From Pyrinomonas methylaliphatogenes (GTDB taxonomy: Bacteria > Acidobacteriota > Blastocatellia > Pyrinomonadales > Pyrinomonadaceae), in the NCBI RefSeq assembly GCF_000820845.2, contig NZ_CBXV010000002.1, forward strand, positions 62,001-126,000: 64,000 bases of DNA, written 5' to 3'. This document shows positions 23,785 through 30,380 of the stretch, piece by piece. Each line of letters starts with the position of its first letter. Within the stretch, counting starts at the first letter, position 1. A program made the translations under genes and the position numbers. The notes under the pieces were generated by a model. That model was not told where the DNA came from. It saw nothing but the letters and a program-made list of their open reading frames with translations, and did no database searches.

Positions 23785-24408
23785 TCAGCGCACCGGTTCG
23801 GGCGCGATTGCGGCGAAGTTGAGCAGAAGCCTGAGCCCGACCGCCTGACTCTTCTCCGGGTGGAACTGGACGCCGTAGATGTTGCCGCGCGCGACCACGG
23901 AGGCGTATCTTGTGCCGTATTCCGTCTCGCCGATGATGTCCTCTTCGTCCGCAGCGTCGCAGTAGTACGAATGGACGAAATAGAAGAAGGCGTCGTCTTC
24001 GATACAATCGAAGAGCGGATGCGGCGCGCGTTGATGCACCTGATTCCAACCGACCTGCGGCACGCGCAAGCCTTCAGCGAAACGCCGCACGTGACCGCGC
24101 AGCAGTCCCAGTCCAGCCACCGGACCGAATTCTTCGGAGGATTCGAAGAGCATCTGCATGCCAACGCAAACGCCGAGAAGCGGCACGCCCTGTTCAACTC
24201 GCTCTTTTACCAACCGGTCCAGACCGCGCTCTTGCAAAGCGCGCATGCACGCGCCGAAAGCGCCGACGCCGGGCAGCACCAACCGTTCGGCCTCGCGCAA
24301 GACTCGTTCGTCTCCGCTCAGCAGCGCCGCGCAACCGGCGGCCTGAAAGGCCTTCTCAACCGAGCGTAAGTTTCCAACGCCGTAATCGATGATCGCAACT
24401 CGCGTCAC
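23785..24408 (-). CDS. hisH: Imidazole glycerol phosphate synthase, glutaminase subunit HisH
   Basis: A GTG start at 24408, preceded by AGGAAGAGGCGTT, gives 207 residues with the expected N-terminus TRVAIIDYGVGNLRSV. The longer open frame to 24744 overlaps hisB and is not conserved. The glutaminase nucleophile Cys is in LLGVCVGMQMLF, and the His-Glu pair is in GVQFHPEKS. HisH supplies ammonia to HisF, which is encoded in the other his cluster. It is the last gene of the hisZ-led operon. Confidence 0.95.
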   Translation of the reverse strand: MTRVAIIDYGVGNLRSVEKAFQAAGCAALLSGDERVLREAERLVLPGVGAFGACMRALQERGLDRLVKERVEQGVPLLGVCVGMQMLFESSEEFGPVAGLGLLRGHVRRFAEGLRVPQVGWNQVHQRAPHPLFDCIEDDAFFYFVHSYYCDAADEEDIIGETEYGTRYASVVARGNIYGVQFHPEKSQAVGLRLLLNFAAIAPEPVR

Positions 24409-24464
24409 AACGCCTCTTCCTTTTCGCGGTTCCGAGTCCAGCCGATCGAAGTCCCGCGTTTCGA

Positions 24465-25070
24465 TCAAAGCACGCCCTTCGTGCTTGGCACGCCCGGCAC
24501 GCGCGGATCGAGCTCGACGGCGCGCCGGAGCGCACGCGCGACCGCTTTGAAACATGCTTCCAGAACGTGATGCGTGTTGCGTCCGCGCAGAAGGTCTATG
24601 TGCAGGTTGCAACGCGCTTCGTGCGCGAACGAACGCCAGAAGTGCTCGGCCATCTCGACCGAGAAGTTGCCGATCTTTTGCCGTCTGGTCGGCAGGTTGT
24701 AGACGAAATAGGCGCGTCCCGACAGATCCACGACGGCGCGGCAAAGCGCTTCATCCATCGGCACAGTCGCTTCGCCGTAACGCGCGATGCCCTTCTTCTC
24801 GCCAAGCGCTTGAGCGAAGGCTTGACCGAGCGCGATGCCGACATCCTCGATCGAATGATGATCGTCAACCTGTAGATCGCCGCGACATTCCACTTCGAGA
24901 TCGAACAAGCCATGGCGCGCGAACAGTTCGAGCATGTGATCGAAAAAGCCTATGCCGGTCAAAATGCGCGCTTCCCCCCGCCCATCGAGCGCAATATGCA
25001 CGCGCACTTGCGTTTCGAGCGTTTGCCGTTCGATCCGCGCCGAACGGCTTTGCGCTTTGACATCCATCAT
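24465..25070 (-). CDS. hisB: Imidazoleglycerol-phosphate dehydratase HisB
   Basis: The start at ATG 25070 is preceded by AAAGGAGACTCG and gives 201 residues; the open frame extends to 25145 but without a comparable ribosome site. The two Mn-binding histidine motifs of the family are visible: FFDHMLELFARHG and DDHHSIEDVGIALG in the first half, and HFWRSFAHEA with RGRNTHHVLEACFK in the second. It is the monofunctional dehydratase without a phosphatase domain, in agreement with a separate HisN-like phosphatase elsewhere. Confidence 0.96.
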   Translation of the reverse strand: MMDVKAQSRSARIERQTLETQVRVHIALDGRGEARILTGIGFFDHMLELFARHGLFDLEVECRGDLQVDDHHSIEDVGIALGQAFAQALGEKKGIARYGEATVPMDEALCRAVVDLSGRAYFVYNLPTRRQKIGNFSVEMAEHFWRSFAHEARCNLHIDLLRGRNTHHVLEACFKAVARALRRAVELDPRVPGVPSTKGVL

Positions 25071-25141: not shown

Positions 25142-27547
25142 TCAACTTCGCGCGAAGATTTCGCGCAGCGCTTCGATCAAAAGATCGTTCTCTTCAGGTC
25201 TGCCGACGCTCACGCGAAAACAGTCGGCGAGCATCGGATAGCCGCTCACGTCGCGGATGAGTATGCCGCGCCGCAACAATTCATCGTAGACGCGACGCGG
25301 TTCAATCCTCGAGCGAACGAGGATGAAGTTCGCCTTCGACGGGACGGGAGAGAGTCCGCTTATCTCCTGCAACGCTTCGAAGAGCCGCTCCCGTTCGCGG
25401 ATCAACGCCTGGACCAGCGGCAGAAGCTCAGCGTCGTACATCTCGAGCGCCACCTCCGCCGCGATCTGCGAAAAGGCGTTGAGGTTGTAGGGAAGCACGG
25501 CTTTGCCGATCTCGCGCGCAATCTCCGGCGCGGCGAGAGCGTAACCGACGCGCCAACCGGCCATCGCCATCGCCTTCGAGAAGGTGCGAAAGACGATCAA
25601 GTTCGGATGCGCGCGCAAGAGGTTGGCCGCCGATCGTTCGGCGAACTCGAAATAGGCTTCATCCACGACGATGAGACCGCTTGCTTTTTCGAGCAAGCGA
25701 ACGAGATCATCCTCCTCGATTACGCCGCCCGTTGGATTGTTGGGCGAGCAGATGATCGTTAAGTCCGGGTCTTCGCGCTCGATCGCACGGCGAAGCGCAG
25801 CGACATCGAAGGTCAGCCGTTCAGTGAGCGGCACGCTCAACACGTCCGCTCCCAGAACCGTGGCGATCTGTCTGTAGAGAGCGAAAGTCGGTTCGGACAA
25901 AAGCGCGCGGCGACCTTCACCGAGCGTGACCATCATGGTCGCCTGAATCAGCTCGTTCGACCCGTTGCCGACGATGATCCCCTCTTCGTCCCAACCGGCG
26001 AAGGCCGCAAGTTTTCGCCGCAACTCTACTGGCACGAAATCCGGATAGCGCGACCAAGCGCGCCGTTCGAAACGTCGCAGAGCTTCGCGCTTGATCCTTT
26101 CGGGCGCGTCGAACGGGTTCTCGTTCTGATTCACTTTGATGGGCGCGCGCTCGGAGCGCAACGTGTAAGCGCGGAGTTCGCGGACGCGCGGCTTGATCCG
26201 CTTCAAAGCGACGCGCAAACCATCATCCATCGTCGCCGAAACATCCTGCGTCGCTTGCTGGTCCAGTCGGATGAGCGCCGAGCGTGCGTGCGCTTCCAAG
26301 CCTTCGGCGCGCGCGAAAACGGCGATCATCCGAGCGGTGCGTTCGAGTTCCTCTCTGGAGTAGCGAAGCATGCTCGCGCGGCGCGTGAAATCGTAAACGC
26401 CGAGCGCGGACGAAAAACGCGCCGCTCCGCCCGTTGGCAGCACATGATTCGGACCGGCGAAATAATCGCCGACGACTTCGGGCGTGTAAGCTCCGAGGAA
26501 GATTGCGCCCGCATGCTTGATCTTGTCAGCGATGGCTTCCGCATCGCGCGCGATGATCTCCAGATGCTCCGGCGCTAGTTCGTTCACCACCGCGCACGCC
26601 TCATCCATATCGCCGACGACGATGAGCGCGCCGTAGTTTCTGAGCGAAGCTTCGACGATCGCGCGCCGCGGCAACATTTCGAGTTGAATTTCGATCTCGC
26701 GCCGAACCGCATCGGCTAAATCGCCCCGCGTCGTCACGAGCACGACCGCCGCCTCCTCGTCGTGCTCGGCCTGGGCCAGCAGATCGGCTGCCACGGAGCG
26801 CGCATCCGCCGTCTCGTCGGCGATGATGGCGACCTCGCTCGGGCCGGCGATGGAATCGATCCCGACGACGCCGAAGACGAGCCGCTTCGCCGCGGCGACG
26901 TACTTGTTCCCCGGCCCGGTGATTTTGTCAACGCGCGGCACGGTCCGTGTGCCGTAGGCGAGCGCGGCGATGGCCTGCGCGCCGCCCACTTTGTAAACTT
27001 CGCTCACGCCAAGCTCGACCAGCGCGGCGGCGACCGCCGGATTTTCGGCGAGCGTTTGTGGCGGGGTGGCGACGACGATCCGTTCGACGCCGGCGACCTG
27101 CGCGGGGATGACGTTCATCAACACTGACGATGGATAGCTGGCCGTTCCGCCCGGCACGTAGAGTCCGGCCCGTTCGATGGGGCGCACGCGCTGGCCCAGC
27201 CGCGTTCCGTTCGAGCGCATCTCCCAAGAACGTTCGCGCTGCCGTTCGTGAAAGGCGCGGATGCGCCGCGCAGCCTCACGCATCACGTCGCGCACTTCGC
27301 GCTCCAAACGCGCCGCCGCATGATGCAACTCATCTTCGCTCGCGCGCAATCTATCGCACGTCAGTTCGACGCCATCGAAGCGCGCCGTATACTCGATCAA
27401 AGCCTCATCGCCTCGGCGCTTCACGTTTTCGATGATGGCGGCGACCTCTCGCATAAGATCCGCATCGAGCGCCACGTTACGCCCAGCGATACGTTCCAAT
27501 CTCGCTCTTCTCCGCTGCTTCTCGTCTGCCCCTATGAGTTCGATCAT
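25142..27547 (-). CDS. Fused histidinol dehydrogenase / histidinol-phosphate aminotransferase (HisD-HisC)
   Basis: One uninterrupted frame of 801 residues starts at ATG 27547. Residues about 1-425 are HisD, with GPGNKYV, IAGPSEVAIIAD, APEHLEI and a GPNHVLPT segment. Residues about 440-801 are HisC, with IKVNQNENPF, CSPNNPTGG, VVDEAYFEF and the PLP lysine in FRTFSKAMAMAGWRVGY. No stop separates them; an internal ATG at 26230 begins the HisC part but has only a weak upstream site. The fused enzyme would perform the aminotransferase step and the final two-step oxidation to histidine. The start overlaps the hisG stop as ATGA. The upstream open extension to 27724 lies in hisG and is ignored. Confidence 0.93.
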   Translation of the reverse strand: MIELIGADEKQRRRARLERIAGRNVALDADLMREVAAIIENVKRRGDEALIEYTARFDGVELTCDRLRASEDELHHAAARLEREVRDVMREAARRIRAFHERQRERSWEMRSNGTRLGQRVRPIERAGLYVPGGTASYPSSVLMNVIPAQVAGVERIVVATPPQTLAENPAVAAALVELGVSEVYKVGGAQAIAALAYGTRTVPRVDKITGPGNKYVAAAKRLVFGVVGIDSIAGPSEVAIIADETADARSVAADLLAQAEHDEEAAVVLVTTRGDLADAVRREIEIQLEMLPRRAIVEASLRNYGALIVVGDMDEACAVVNELAPEHLEIIARDAEAIADKIKHAGAIFLGAYTPEVVGDYFAGPNHVLPTGGAARFSSALGVYDFTRRASMLRYSREELERTARMIAVFARAEGLEAHARSALIRLDQQATQDVSATMDDGLRVALKRIKPRVRELRAYTLRSERAPIKVNQNENPFDAPERIKREALRRFERRAWSRYPDFVPVELRRKLAAFAGWDEEGIIVGNGSNELIQATMMVTLGEGRRALLSEPTFALYRQIATVLGADVLSVPLTERLTFDVAALRRAIEREDPDLTIICSPNNPTGGVIEEDDLVRLLEKASGLIVVDEAYFEFAERSAANLLRAHPNLIVFRTFSKAMAMAGWRVGYALAAPEIAREIGKAVLPYNLNAFSQIAAEVALEMYDAELLPLVQALIRERERLFEALQEISGLSPVPSKANFILVRSRIEPRRVYDELLRRGILIRDVSGYPMLADCFRVSVGRPEENDLLIEALREIFARS

Positions 27548-28203
27548 CCTTCTCGCTCCGACGCTCGACCGAGCGCGGCGATCAACTCCGCCATCGCTTC
27601 GGCCTTCAGTTGATAGCTGGCGCGGTTGGCGACCAACCGCCCCGTCGATTCCGCGATCACCTCGACCACCTGCAAACCGTTCTCCGCGAGCGTCCGCCCC
27701 GTCTCGACCAGATCGACGATGCAATCGCTCAGACCAAGCACCGGCGCGAGTTCGACCGAACCGGCCAACTCGATGATCTCCACCGGAATGCCGCGCCGTC
27801 CGAAATGTGCCGCCGCGATGCGCGGGTACTTGGTCGCCACGCGCAACATGCCGAGATTGCGCGTAACATCGTCAGGCCCCTTCGCCGCGACGGCGATGCG
27901 ACATCGGTTGATGCCCAGATCGAGGGGCTGCAAAACGTCCGCCTCGGCTTCCATCAACACATCCCGCCCGACGATGCCACAATCGGCAATGCCGTGCTCG
28001 ACGTAAACCGGAACGTCAGCCGGTTTGACGAAAACGAGACGATAGCGCCCGCGGCGATCGTATGCCGTTAAACGGCGCGAGCCATTGAGGGTCTCATCGA
28101 GCTCAATGCCGGCACGCAGAAGAAGGCGCTGCGCCTCCTCTTGCATACGCCCCTTGGCGAGAGCGATCGTCAACTTTGTCAACTCTTCCCGTTCCATCCG
28201 CAA
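27544..28203 (-). CDS. hisG: ATP phosphoribosyltransferase catalytic subunit, short form HisG
   Basis: This 219-residue HisG lacks the C-terminal regulatory domain of the long form. Signatures are ALAKGRM at the N-terminus, DCGIVGRDVLME in the PBP-like fold, and the PRPP-binding region GSVELAPVLGLSDCIVDLVETG. The short form needs HisZ for activity and feedback control, and hisZ lies just upstream. The stop codon overlaps the hisD-hisC start, which suggests translational coupling. It catalyses the first step of histidine synthesis. Confidence 0.96.
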   Translation of the reverse strand: MRMEREELTKLTIALAKGRMQEEAQRLLLRAGIELDETLNGSRRLTAYDRRGRYRLVFVKPADVPVYVEHGIADCGIVGRDVLMEAEADVLQPLDLGINRCRIAVAAKGPDDVTRNLGMLRVATKYPRIAAAHFGRRGIPVEIIELAGSVELAPVLGLSDCIVDLVETGRTLAENGLQVVEVIAESTGRLVANRASYQLKAEAMAELIAALGRASEREG

Positions 28204-28231: not shown

Positions 28232-29335
28232 TCAGAACTCGATCAACACACGTTCATCCGCTTCCCTTAACCGCAAAGCCGAACGGAATAGCGCGATCCG
28301 ATCTTCATCGCGCAATCGCGCGCCGCCATCCCCTGCATCTTGCGCACCACGGCGACGCCAAAGCACGTCGGTCAGAGAGTCGAGGTCGAAGATGAAGCCG
28401 ATCGCCGGTTCCGCGCGCCCGAAGTTCGCCGTTAGACCATCGTAACGACCGCCGTTCCCCACTCTCACGCCCAACCCGCGGACGTATATGCGAAAGACCA
28501 GCCCCGTGTAGTAATCTAGCTCCGAAACGTCGCCCAAATCGATCTCGAAACTGTCGGCCAGACCGAGCGCCTCGAGAGCCCGCCAAAGCGCCTCTAAGTT
28601 TTCGAGCGCACGACGCGAACGCTCGTTGACGATCAGATGGCGCGCGCGATCGAACATCTCGCTCTTTCCGGCCAAACGAGTCAACTGCGCAAAAGCGATG
28701 CAATCTTCCGCCGGAGCGTAGGGAGCGAGAAACTCGCGCAGCTCCGAAGCGTTACGCGCATCGATCAACTGCCGCAGATGCTCGCGCGCCGTCTCATCAA
28801 GTTTCAAGTTCTCCGCGACGCCATTGAAGACCTCGACGTCGTTCAACGTGATGCGATAGTCTCCCGCGAGACCCAAACGGCGTAAGATCTCCGCTGCAAT
28901 CAGCAGGACCTCGAGATCGGCGTTCACCCCGCGCGCGCCGATCAACTCGCAACCGAGATGCGTCGTTTCACGCCGCCACTCGGCGTGCGAGCGCGGACGC
29001 TGATGGAACACGGTCGCCGCGTAACAGAAACGCAAAGGCCGCGCCCTTTCAGCAAAAAGCGTCGCCGCCGCGCGCGCCACGCTTGAAGTGATGTCCGGGC
29101 GCAGAGCGAGCAACCGCCCATCGGTATCCGTAAACCGGAAGGCGCGATGCGCTTGGCTGCGCCCCATGCCGCGTTCGAAAAGGGCATAATAGTCGATGGT
29201 CGGCGTGACGATCTCCTCGTAAGACCAACCGCGGAAAACCGCCATGGCGAGATCCTCAACGTCGCGACGCAAACGAGCTTGCGAGCCGAAGTAATACTTC
29301 ATCCCAACCGGGATCTTCGATAGCGGTTCGCTCAT
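28232..29335 (-). CDS. hisZ: ATP phosphoribosyltransferase regulatory subunit HisZ
   Basis: This 367-residue protein resembles the catalytic core of histidyl-tRNA synthetase: motif 2-like LRFCYAATVFHQRPR, motif 3-like GNGGRYDGL, and ALRPDITSSVARA. It has no anticodon-binding domain and lies next to short-form hisG, so it is HisZ, the regulatory partner that confers histidine sensing, not a true HisRS. It is the first structural gene after the his leader, with GGAG 9 nt before ATG 29335. Confidence 0.95.
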   Translation of the reverse strand: MSEPLSKIPVGMKYYFGSQARLRRDVEDLAMAVFRGWSYEEIVTPTIDYYALFERGMGRSQAHRAFRFTDTDGRLLALRPDITSSVARAAATLFAERARPLRFCYAATVFHQRPRSHAEWRRETTHLGCELIGARGVNADLEVLLIAAEILRRLGLAGDYRITLNDVEVFNGVAENLKLDETAREHLRQLIDARNASELREFLAPYAPAEDCIAFAQLTRLAGKSEMFDRARHLIVNERSRRALENLEALWRALEALGLADSFEIDLGDVSELDYYTGLVFRIYVRGLGVRVGNGGRYDGLTANFGRAEPAIGFIFDLDSLTDVLWRRRGAQDAGDGGARLRDEDRIALFRSALRLREADERVLIEF

Positions 29336-29350
29336 CTTTGCTCCAAACTG

Positions 29351-29388
29351 AAAGGCCTGCTGCGAATCATCCTCGGCAGCAGGCCTTT
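29351..29388 (-). terminator. Attenuator hairpin in the his leader
   Basis: A perfect 13-bp stem pairs 29351-29363 with 29376-29388 (AAAGGCCTGCTGC and its complement) across a 12 nt loop, between the leader peptide and hisZ. On the transcribed strand it ends in CCTTTCAGTTT, a modest U-rich tail. A competing pairing is possible: the leader's GGCGGCAG (29436-29429) can pair with CTGCTGCC (29382-29375) and block the stem, the classical antiterminator logic. Confidence 0.75.
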
Positions 29389-29414
29389 TAGATTCAGCTC
29401 AATCTTTCAGCGAT

Positions 29415-29495
29415 CTACAGCAAGACCTCTGCCGCCACCTCCGCTCCGCGCGGATGATGCACGTGATGGCGATGGTTCAAGAGGTCGCGGCACAT
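29415..29495 (-). CDS. hisL: His operon leader peptide (HisL-type), 26 residues
   Basis: A short minus-strand frame runs from ATG 29495 to a TAG at 29415 and encodes a 26-residue peptide containing NHRHHVHHPRG, that is five histidines in seven residues. It lies between a good promoter (29559-29588) and a terminator-like hairpin, 80 nt before hisZ. Ribosome stalling on the His codons when charged tRNA-His is scarce would favour the antiterminator and let transcription enter the operon. The function is inferred from the classical his attenuation model; the His run and arrangement are seen directly. Confidence 0.82.
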   Translation of the reverse strand: MCRDLLNHRHHVHHPRGAEVAAEVLL

Positions 29496-29558
29496 AGGAC
29501 TTACCGGAAACCTTCGACTGCTGACGCCACCTACTGAAGTAGCGTCCAGCTTCGGGTT

Positions 29559-29588
29559 CTTATAGCCGAGAGAGGAGGCCTCTGTCAA
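29559..29588 (-). promoter_or_regulatory. Sigma-70-type promoter of the his operon
   Basis: On the minus strand TTGACA (29588-29583) and TATAAG (29564-29559) are separated by 18 nt. Transcription would start near 29552, about 57 nt before the leader peptide ATG. Confidence 0.75.
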
Positions 29589-30104: not shown

Positions 30105-30380
30105 ATGATTCTCGACATCCTAGGTTGGATCGTCTTCGGATTGATCGTCGGATTGATCGCCAAGGCGATCATGCCCGGCAAAGATCCCGGCGGCGCGATC
30201 GTCACCATCGTGCTCGGCATCGTCGGCGCGATCATCGGCGGTTTCATCGGGCGAAATTTACTCGGAAGACACGATGTCAACGAGTCATTTTCGCTGACCG
30301 GCCTGTTGCTGGCGGTGCTCGGCGCGATCATCGTGCTGGCGATCTATCGCTTGGCGACGGGTCGTAGCCTGCGCGCCTAA
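30105..30380 (+). CDS. GlsB/YeaQ/YmgE-family small membrane protein
   Basis: This 91-residue protein has three hydrophobic helices and the family signature GWIVFGLIVGLIAK, then MPGKDPGG, then GIVGAIIGGFIGR. The start follows AAGGAGAACGAAGAG. Members are called transglycosylase-associated or stress-response membrane proteins; their real function is unknown. It is a single gene, followed by a weak CCAAAGG/CCTTTGG hairpin at 30414-30440. Confidence 0.9.
   Translation: MILDILGWIVFGLIVGLIAKAIMPGKDPGGAIVTIVLGIVGAIIGGFIGRNLLGRHDVNESFSLTGLLLAVLGAIIVLAIYRLATGRSLRA

Follow-up and report, generated by a model that had tools for sequence, protein, structure and literature searches.

A putative histidine attenuator upstream of a hisZ-led operon in Pyrinomonadaceae (Acidobacteriota)

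Described his attenuators and the hisZ locus

Attenuators of his operons are known from Proteobacteria, and in E. coli, as textbooks describe, attenuation operates alongside feedback inhibition of ATP phosphoribosyltransferase by histidine. His leaders have also been reported before hisZ in bacilli (PMC2965389), and his attenuators have been reported in the B. cereus group, in relatives of C. difficile, and in Erysipelotrichales (PMC9413887, PMC4833913). As of 2010, almost none of the attenuators in Acidobacteria had an assigned function (PMC2965389), and we found no report of his attenuation in this group in the openly accessible literature.

The stretch of DNA analyzed here, referred to as the window, is 64,000 nt long (G000:C2:62001-126000) and comes from a 3.79-Mb genome of the family Pyrinomonadaceae (Acidobacteriota). 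A preliminary description had proposed that a promoter, a 26-codon leader with five His codons in seven, a 13-bp terminator, and a competing antiterminator precede hisZ; all of these elements are where that description placed them, on the minus strand. We interpret the locus, with a probability of about 0.9, as a histidine-specific, ribosome-mediated transcription attenuator of the hisZ-hisG-hisDC-hisB-hisH operon. This is a known type of switch, now in a phylum with almost no function-assigned attenuators.

All genes of the operon are on the minus strand. The first, hisZ (28232-29335, start at 29335), encodes the regulatory subunit of ATP phosphoribosyltransferase and matched TIGR00443 with 287 bits (cut-off, 272). 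It is followed by a short-form hisG (27544-28203; TIGR00070, 197 bits, 219 amino acids), by hisD and hisC fused in a single frame of about 801 amino acids (25142-27547; TIGR00069 and TIGR01141 both above cut-off in one open reading frame), by hisB (24465-25070; HisB models above cut-off), and by hisH (23785-24555; TIGR01855, 234 bits with a cut-off of 105; HisH domain at residues 53-249). In the relatives in which both hisD and hisC were found, the two genes either stand apart or share a few bases, and thus the fusion looks particular to the genus or species of the window. Within Pyrinomonadaceae there is a split between genomes with hisZ and a short hisG (31 of 119) and those with a long hisG without hisZ (about half of the hisG-bearing genomes). 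No hisG match was obtained in a further 53 of the 119 genomes; its absence even from some nearly complete genomes suggests histidine auxotrophy.

The -35 element TTGACA (29588-29583) and the -10 element TATAAG (29564-29559), both on the minus strand and separated by an 18-nt spacer, were identified by direct reading. The automatic promoter scan, whose rule requires T as the final -10 base, missed this promoter. The leader frame (29495-29415, minus strand), MCRDLLNHRHHVHHPRGAEVAAEVLL, has 26 codons followed by TAG, with five His in codons 8 to 14. It was the only ATG frame of at most 60 codons with five His in seven codons in the window, and 60 dinucleotide shuffles of the window yielded no frame with five His in seven codons. 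A chance origin of the His-rich leader is excluded.

Like enterobacterial hisL (RF00514), the locus has a His-rich leader, mutually exclusive antiterminator and terminator pairings before the first his gene, and a promoter just upstream. It differs from hisL in that its His codons are interspersed (HRHHVHH) rather than in one run, in that it has no supported 1:2 pause hairpin, in that its first gene is hisZ and not hisG-long, and in that the Rfam model does not detect it. The preliminary description had suggested a check against this model; Rfam His_leader had no match in the window at gathering or lax thresholds. Nor did it match any of 20 leader loci tested or, at cut-off, any of 162 genomes of the class, while the E. 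coli positive control was detected. Microrna-model matches on the terminator palindrome in the lax Rfam scan were dismissed as chance.

A further likeness, by description, is to the His leaders before hisZ and hisS* in bacilli and to those of the his operons in C. difficile and Erysipelotrichales, which also combine a His leader on a hisZ-led operon with a predicted terminator and antiterminator (PMC2965389, PMC9413887, PMC4833913); unlike these, the window belongs to another phylum. The earlier characterization of the attenuator as lying outside the classical phyla is apt with respect to Acidobacteriota, but His leaders outside Proteobacteria, including before hisZ, had already been reported in the same three studies. 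It had also been suggested that an attenuator before a HisZ/HisG-short operon gives two layers of control. The attenuator does precede such an operon, but this is not special, because E. coli has both layers and a His leader is present as well in HisG-long relatives that lack hisZ. In Firmicutes, histidine supply likewise controls his genes, through the histidine T-box riboswitch and the HisR repressor. Unlike a histidine T-box, the proposed reader of the signal here is a ribosome on the leader frame; there was no Rfam T-box match in the window, in which the sole match above gathering score was a tRNA.

Competing hairpins and the proposed switch

The two competing pairings share one arm, and statements on pairing in the window are by direct reading, because MAFFT put region 2 of the window row in the wrong place. 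Region 2, the 5' arm of the antiterminator (29434-29422, minus strand), lies within leader codons 21 to 25 and ends 4 nt before the leader stop codon. Region 3 (29388-29374, minus strand) serves as both the 3' arm of the antiterminator (29387-29374) and the 5' arm of the terminator (29388-29376). Region 4 (29363-29351, minus strand) is the 3' arm of the terminator and is followed by an interrupted U tract (29350-29345). The terminator stem, AAAGGCCTGCTGC with GCAGCAGGCCTTT, is GC-rich and has 13 bp, and CAGUUU follows it; this tract (UUUCAGUUU) is weaker than the U tracts of relatives. In the antiterminator, CGGCAGAGGTCTT pairs with AAGGCCTGCTGCCG through 13 pairs with one bulged base. The predicted energy of this duplex, -23.4 kcal/mol, was equalled by 1 of 200 shuffles.

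On the geometry and energies of these pairings, ribosome stalling, termination, and a response to histidine would proceed as follows. RNA polymerase would initiate at the TTGACA/TATAAG promoter, with a ribosome trailing on the 26-codon leader. A shortage of His-tRNA would stall the ribosome at codons 8 to 14 and leave region 2 uncovered; free region 2 would then pair with region 3, no terminator would form, and the operon would be transcribed. When His-tRNA is plentiful, the ribosome would reach the nearby stop codon and cover region 2, and region 3 would instead pair with region 4, stopping transcription before hisZ.

In equilibrium folds the antiterminator had a probability of 0.67 to 0.68 for a transcript ending after region 3. 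The terminator had a probability of 0.86 to 0.89 once region 4 was present and of 0.86 with region 2 hidden. At equilibrium the full transcript favors the terminator even with region 2 free, and read-through would thus depend on timing. A classical 1:2 pause hairpin could be drawn from GACCTCT/AGAGGTC, which match over 7 bp around the His codons, but it is not supported by the fold, in which its equilibrium probability was 0.

The terminator stem ends just 15 nt before the hisZ start, and this proximity, together with the interruption of the U tract in the window genome, could also point to control of the translation of hisZ rather than of transcription, with the hairpin hiding or exposing the ribosome-binding site. 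Such variants have been described for some attenuators (PMC9413887). However, the GGAG before hisZ lies outside the stem, and in relatives, where uninterrupted T runs follow the stem, its distance from hisZ reaches up to 385 nt, an arrangement that fits a terminator and not a lock on a ribosome-binding site. We consider control of hisZ translation unlikely.

Conservation among relatives

The 31 Pyrinomonadaceae genomes with hisZ provided 32 hisZ upstream regions. The reading of the locus as a his attenuator had been proposed to stand or fall with conservation among close relatives, and in these relatives the His-rich frame has been retained, as has the hairpin pairing. A complete His-rich leader with 5 to 11 His was found in 28 of the 32 regions, two of the leaders lying farther upstream owing to inserts; the antisense control gave none. 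Three of the other four regions (L048, L002, and L009) are truncated by contig ends. The L048 region begins one base inside the leader and, by eye, reads THHHHSHHHARHHG. L002 and L009 keep the terminator, and L002 also keeps the end of the leader and region 2. In L002, from a relative of the same genus, region 3 is altered and, by eye, regions 2 and 4 have changed to match it; the His-codon part of this leader lies beyond the contig end. When all 20 amino acids were compared in 360-nt upstream regions, His alone was enriched: it was so in 26 regions, compared with 2 for the runner-up and 0 on the antisense strand. An exact TTGACA, a spacer of 17 to 18 nt, and a TATAAR-like box precede 26 of the 28 family leaders.

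The fourth region, L010, lacks a leader. There the same kind of terminator follows a LysM-like gene, as would be expected if the hairpin merely ended an upstream transcript and had no connection with the His-rich frame. In the window, however, the gene upstream of the attenuator is divergent (30105-30380, plus strand), and in the 28 regions the terminator has been kept together with the His-rich frame, the promoter, and region 2. That the hairpin simply ends an upstream transcript is therefore highly improbable.

His-rich peptides can bind metals. The conserved frame might accordingly be thought to encode a small protein with its own role in trans, such as metal binding, and there is precedent in a Sinorhizobium Trp leader peptide that acts in trans (PMC7298713). 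We give very little credence to this explanation: across the family it is mainly the His content that is kept and not the rest of the peptide, the lengths range from 24 to 44 codons, and the frame sits in front of his genes, coupled to competing hairpins.

Both pairings of the proposed attenuator were also evaluated among relatives. The pairing of the terminator 5' arm with a segment inside or just past the leader frame, that is, the antiterminator duplex, outperformed shuffled sequence in 23 of the 28 leaders at the 5% level (median z, -2.5). The covariation check that the preliminary description had called for was carried out on a 27-sequence alignment, in which no shuffle of 500 equalled either helix. 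The terminator helix was 92.3% paired, and six of its pairs showed double changes. The antiterminator was 82.1% paired (score, 0.188 versus 0.129), its covariation being due largely to a small number of clades; in a subset of 18 sequences lacking these clades the signal was not above column shuffles. Sliding the partner by one base in the 18-sequence subset lowered antiterminator pairing from 90% to below 40%. Comparison of these sequences thus establishes the leader, the promoter, and the two competing pairings as conserved sequence features.

A covariance model was built from these same 18 relatives, leaving out the window and its genus. Its best match in the window was 29472-29345 (29.6 bits, E = 6e-8), and the next was the same palindrome on the opposite strand (E = 0.04). 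A scan of the window's own genome with the model gave no second clear copy.

Leader-peptide attenuators elsewhere in Acidobacteriota

His leaders are not confined to operons led by hisZ. In Pyrinomonadaceae with a long HisG and no hisZ, a His-rich mini-frame lies shortly upstream of hisG in 18 of 19 loci, with other flanking sequence. The automatic antiterminator test was positive in just 2 of 17 of these HisG-long leaders, which are AT-rich, and the script probably chose the wrong terminators. In other classes of Acidobacteriota, an ATG mini-frame with four or more His within eight codons was present at most 900 nt upstream of hisG in 31 of 60 genomes (opposite strand, 0 of 60), and antiterminator pairing beat shuffles at the 5% level in 19 of the 31 leaders tested. 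By inspection, these mini-frames often precede a hisI-like frame. In families of Blastocatellia other than Pyrinomonadaceae, no His leader was found upstream of hisZ or hisG. Acidobacteriota probably make wide use of ribosome-mediated his attenuation, which the Rfam model fails to detect.

These results assign a function to attenuators in a phylum for which the 2010 survey had almost none (PMC2965389), and the leader set and covariance model can be used for tracing his attenuation in other phyla. Attenuation of this kind implies that coupled transcription and translation serve as a regulatory device in Acidobacteriota, a soil phylum. We lean toward the view that the his attenuator is one of a broad, hitherto undescribed set of leader-peptide attenuators in Acidobacteriota. 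Its members would be the His leaders, found in several classes and upstream of either type of hisG, and leaders for Trp, Cys, and Tyr that resemble them in the layout of promoter, leader, and terminator, among them the Tyr leader of the phenylalanine hydroxylase gene.

The leaders for other amino acids surfaced, before matching genes, when the genomes of the class were scanned with the His-leader covariance model. Trp leaders (MKTSNYNSRTINAAWYWWSVNVGG... and ...YANWYWRVTS...) precede DAHP synthase/trpE and trpE (L261, L262, and L263). A gene for a PLP-dependent, cysteine-synthase-like protein, followed by a JAB-domain gene, is preceded in another family of the class by a leader frame containing CCCC or CCC (L264 and L265). 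A leader containing Cys and Arg, together with a terminator, was observed before a peroxiredoxin (AhpC/TSA) gene (L266:203-338).

In Pyrinomonadaceae, a Tyr-rich leader with a consensus like YRYYYYYGPLSARRDGRAMGCR occurs about 210 to 500 nt before the gene for phenylalanine hydroxylase (PF00351; L301-L320 and L267), a gene absent from the window genome. This leader was found in 17 of 20 Pyrinomonadaceae genomes (antisense, 0 of 20), in most cases accompanied by a promoter-like motif and a strong terminator, and the antiterminator was significant in 9 of the 17. From its sequence, the arrangement looks like tyrosine-sensing attenuation of a tyrosine-making enzyme, which converts phenylalanine to tyrosine.
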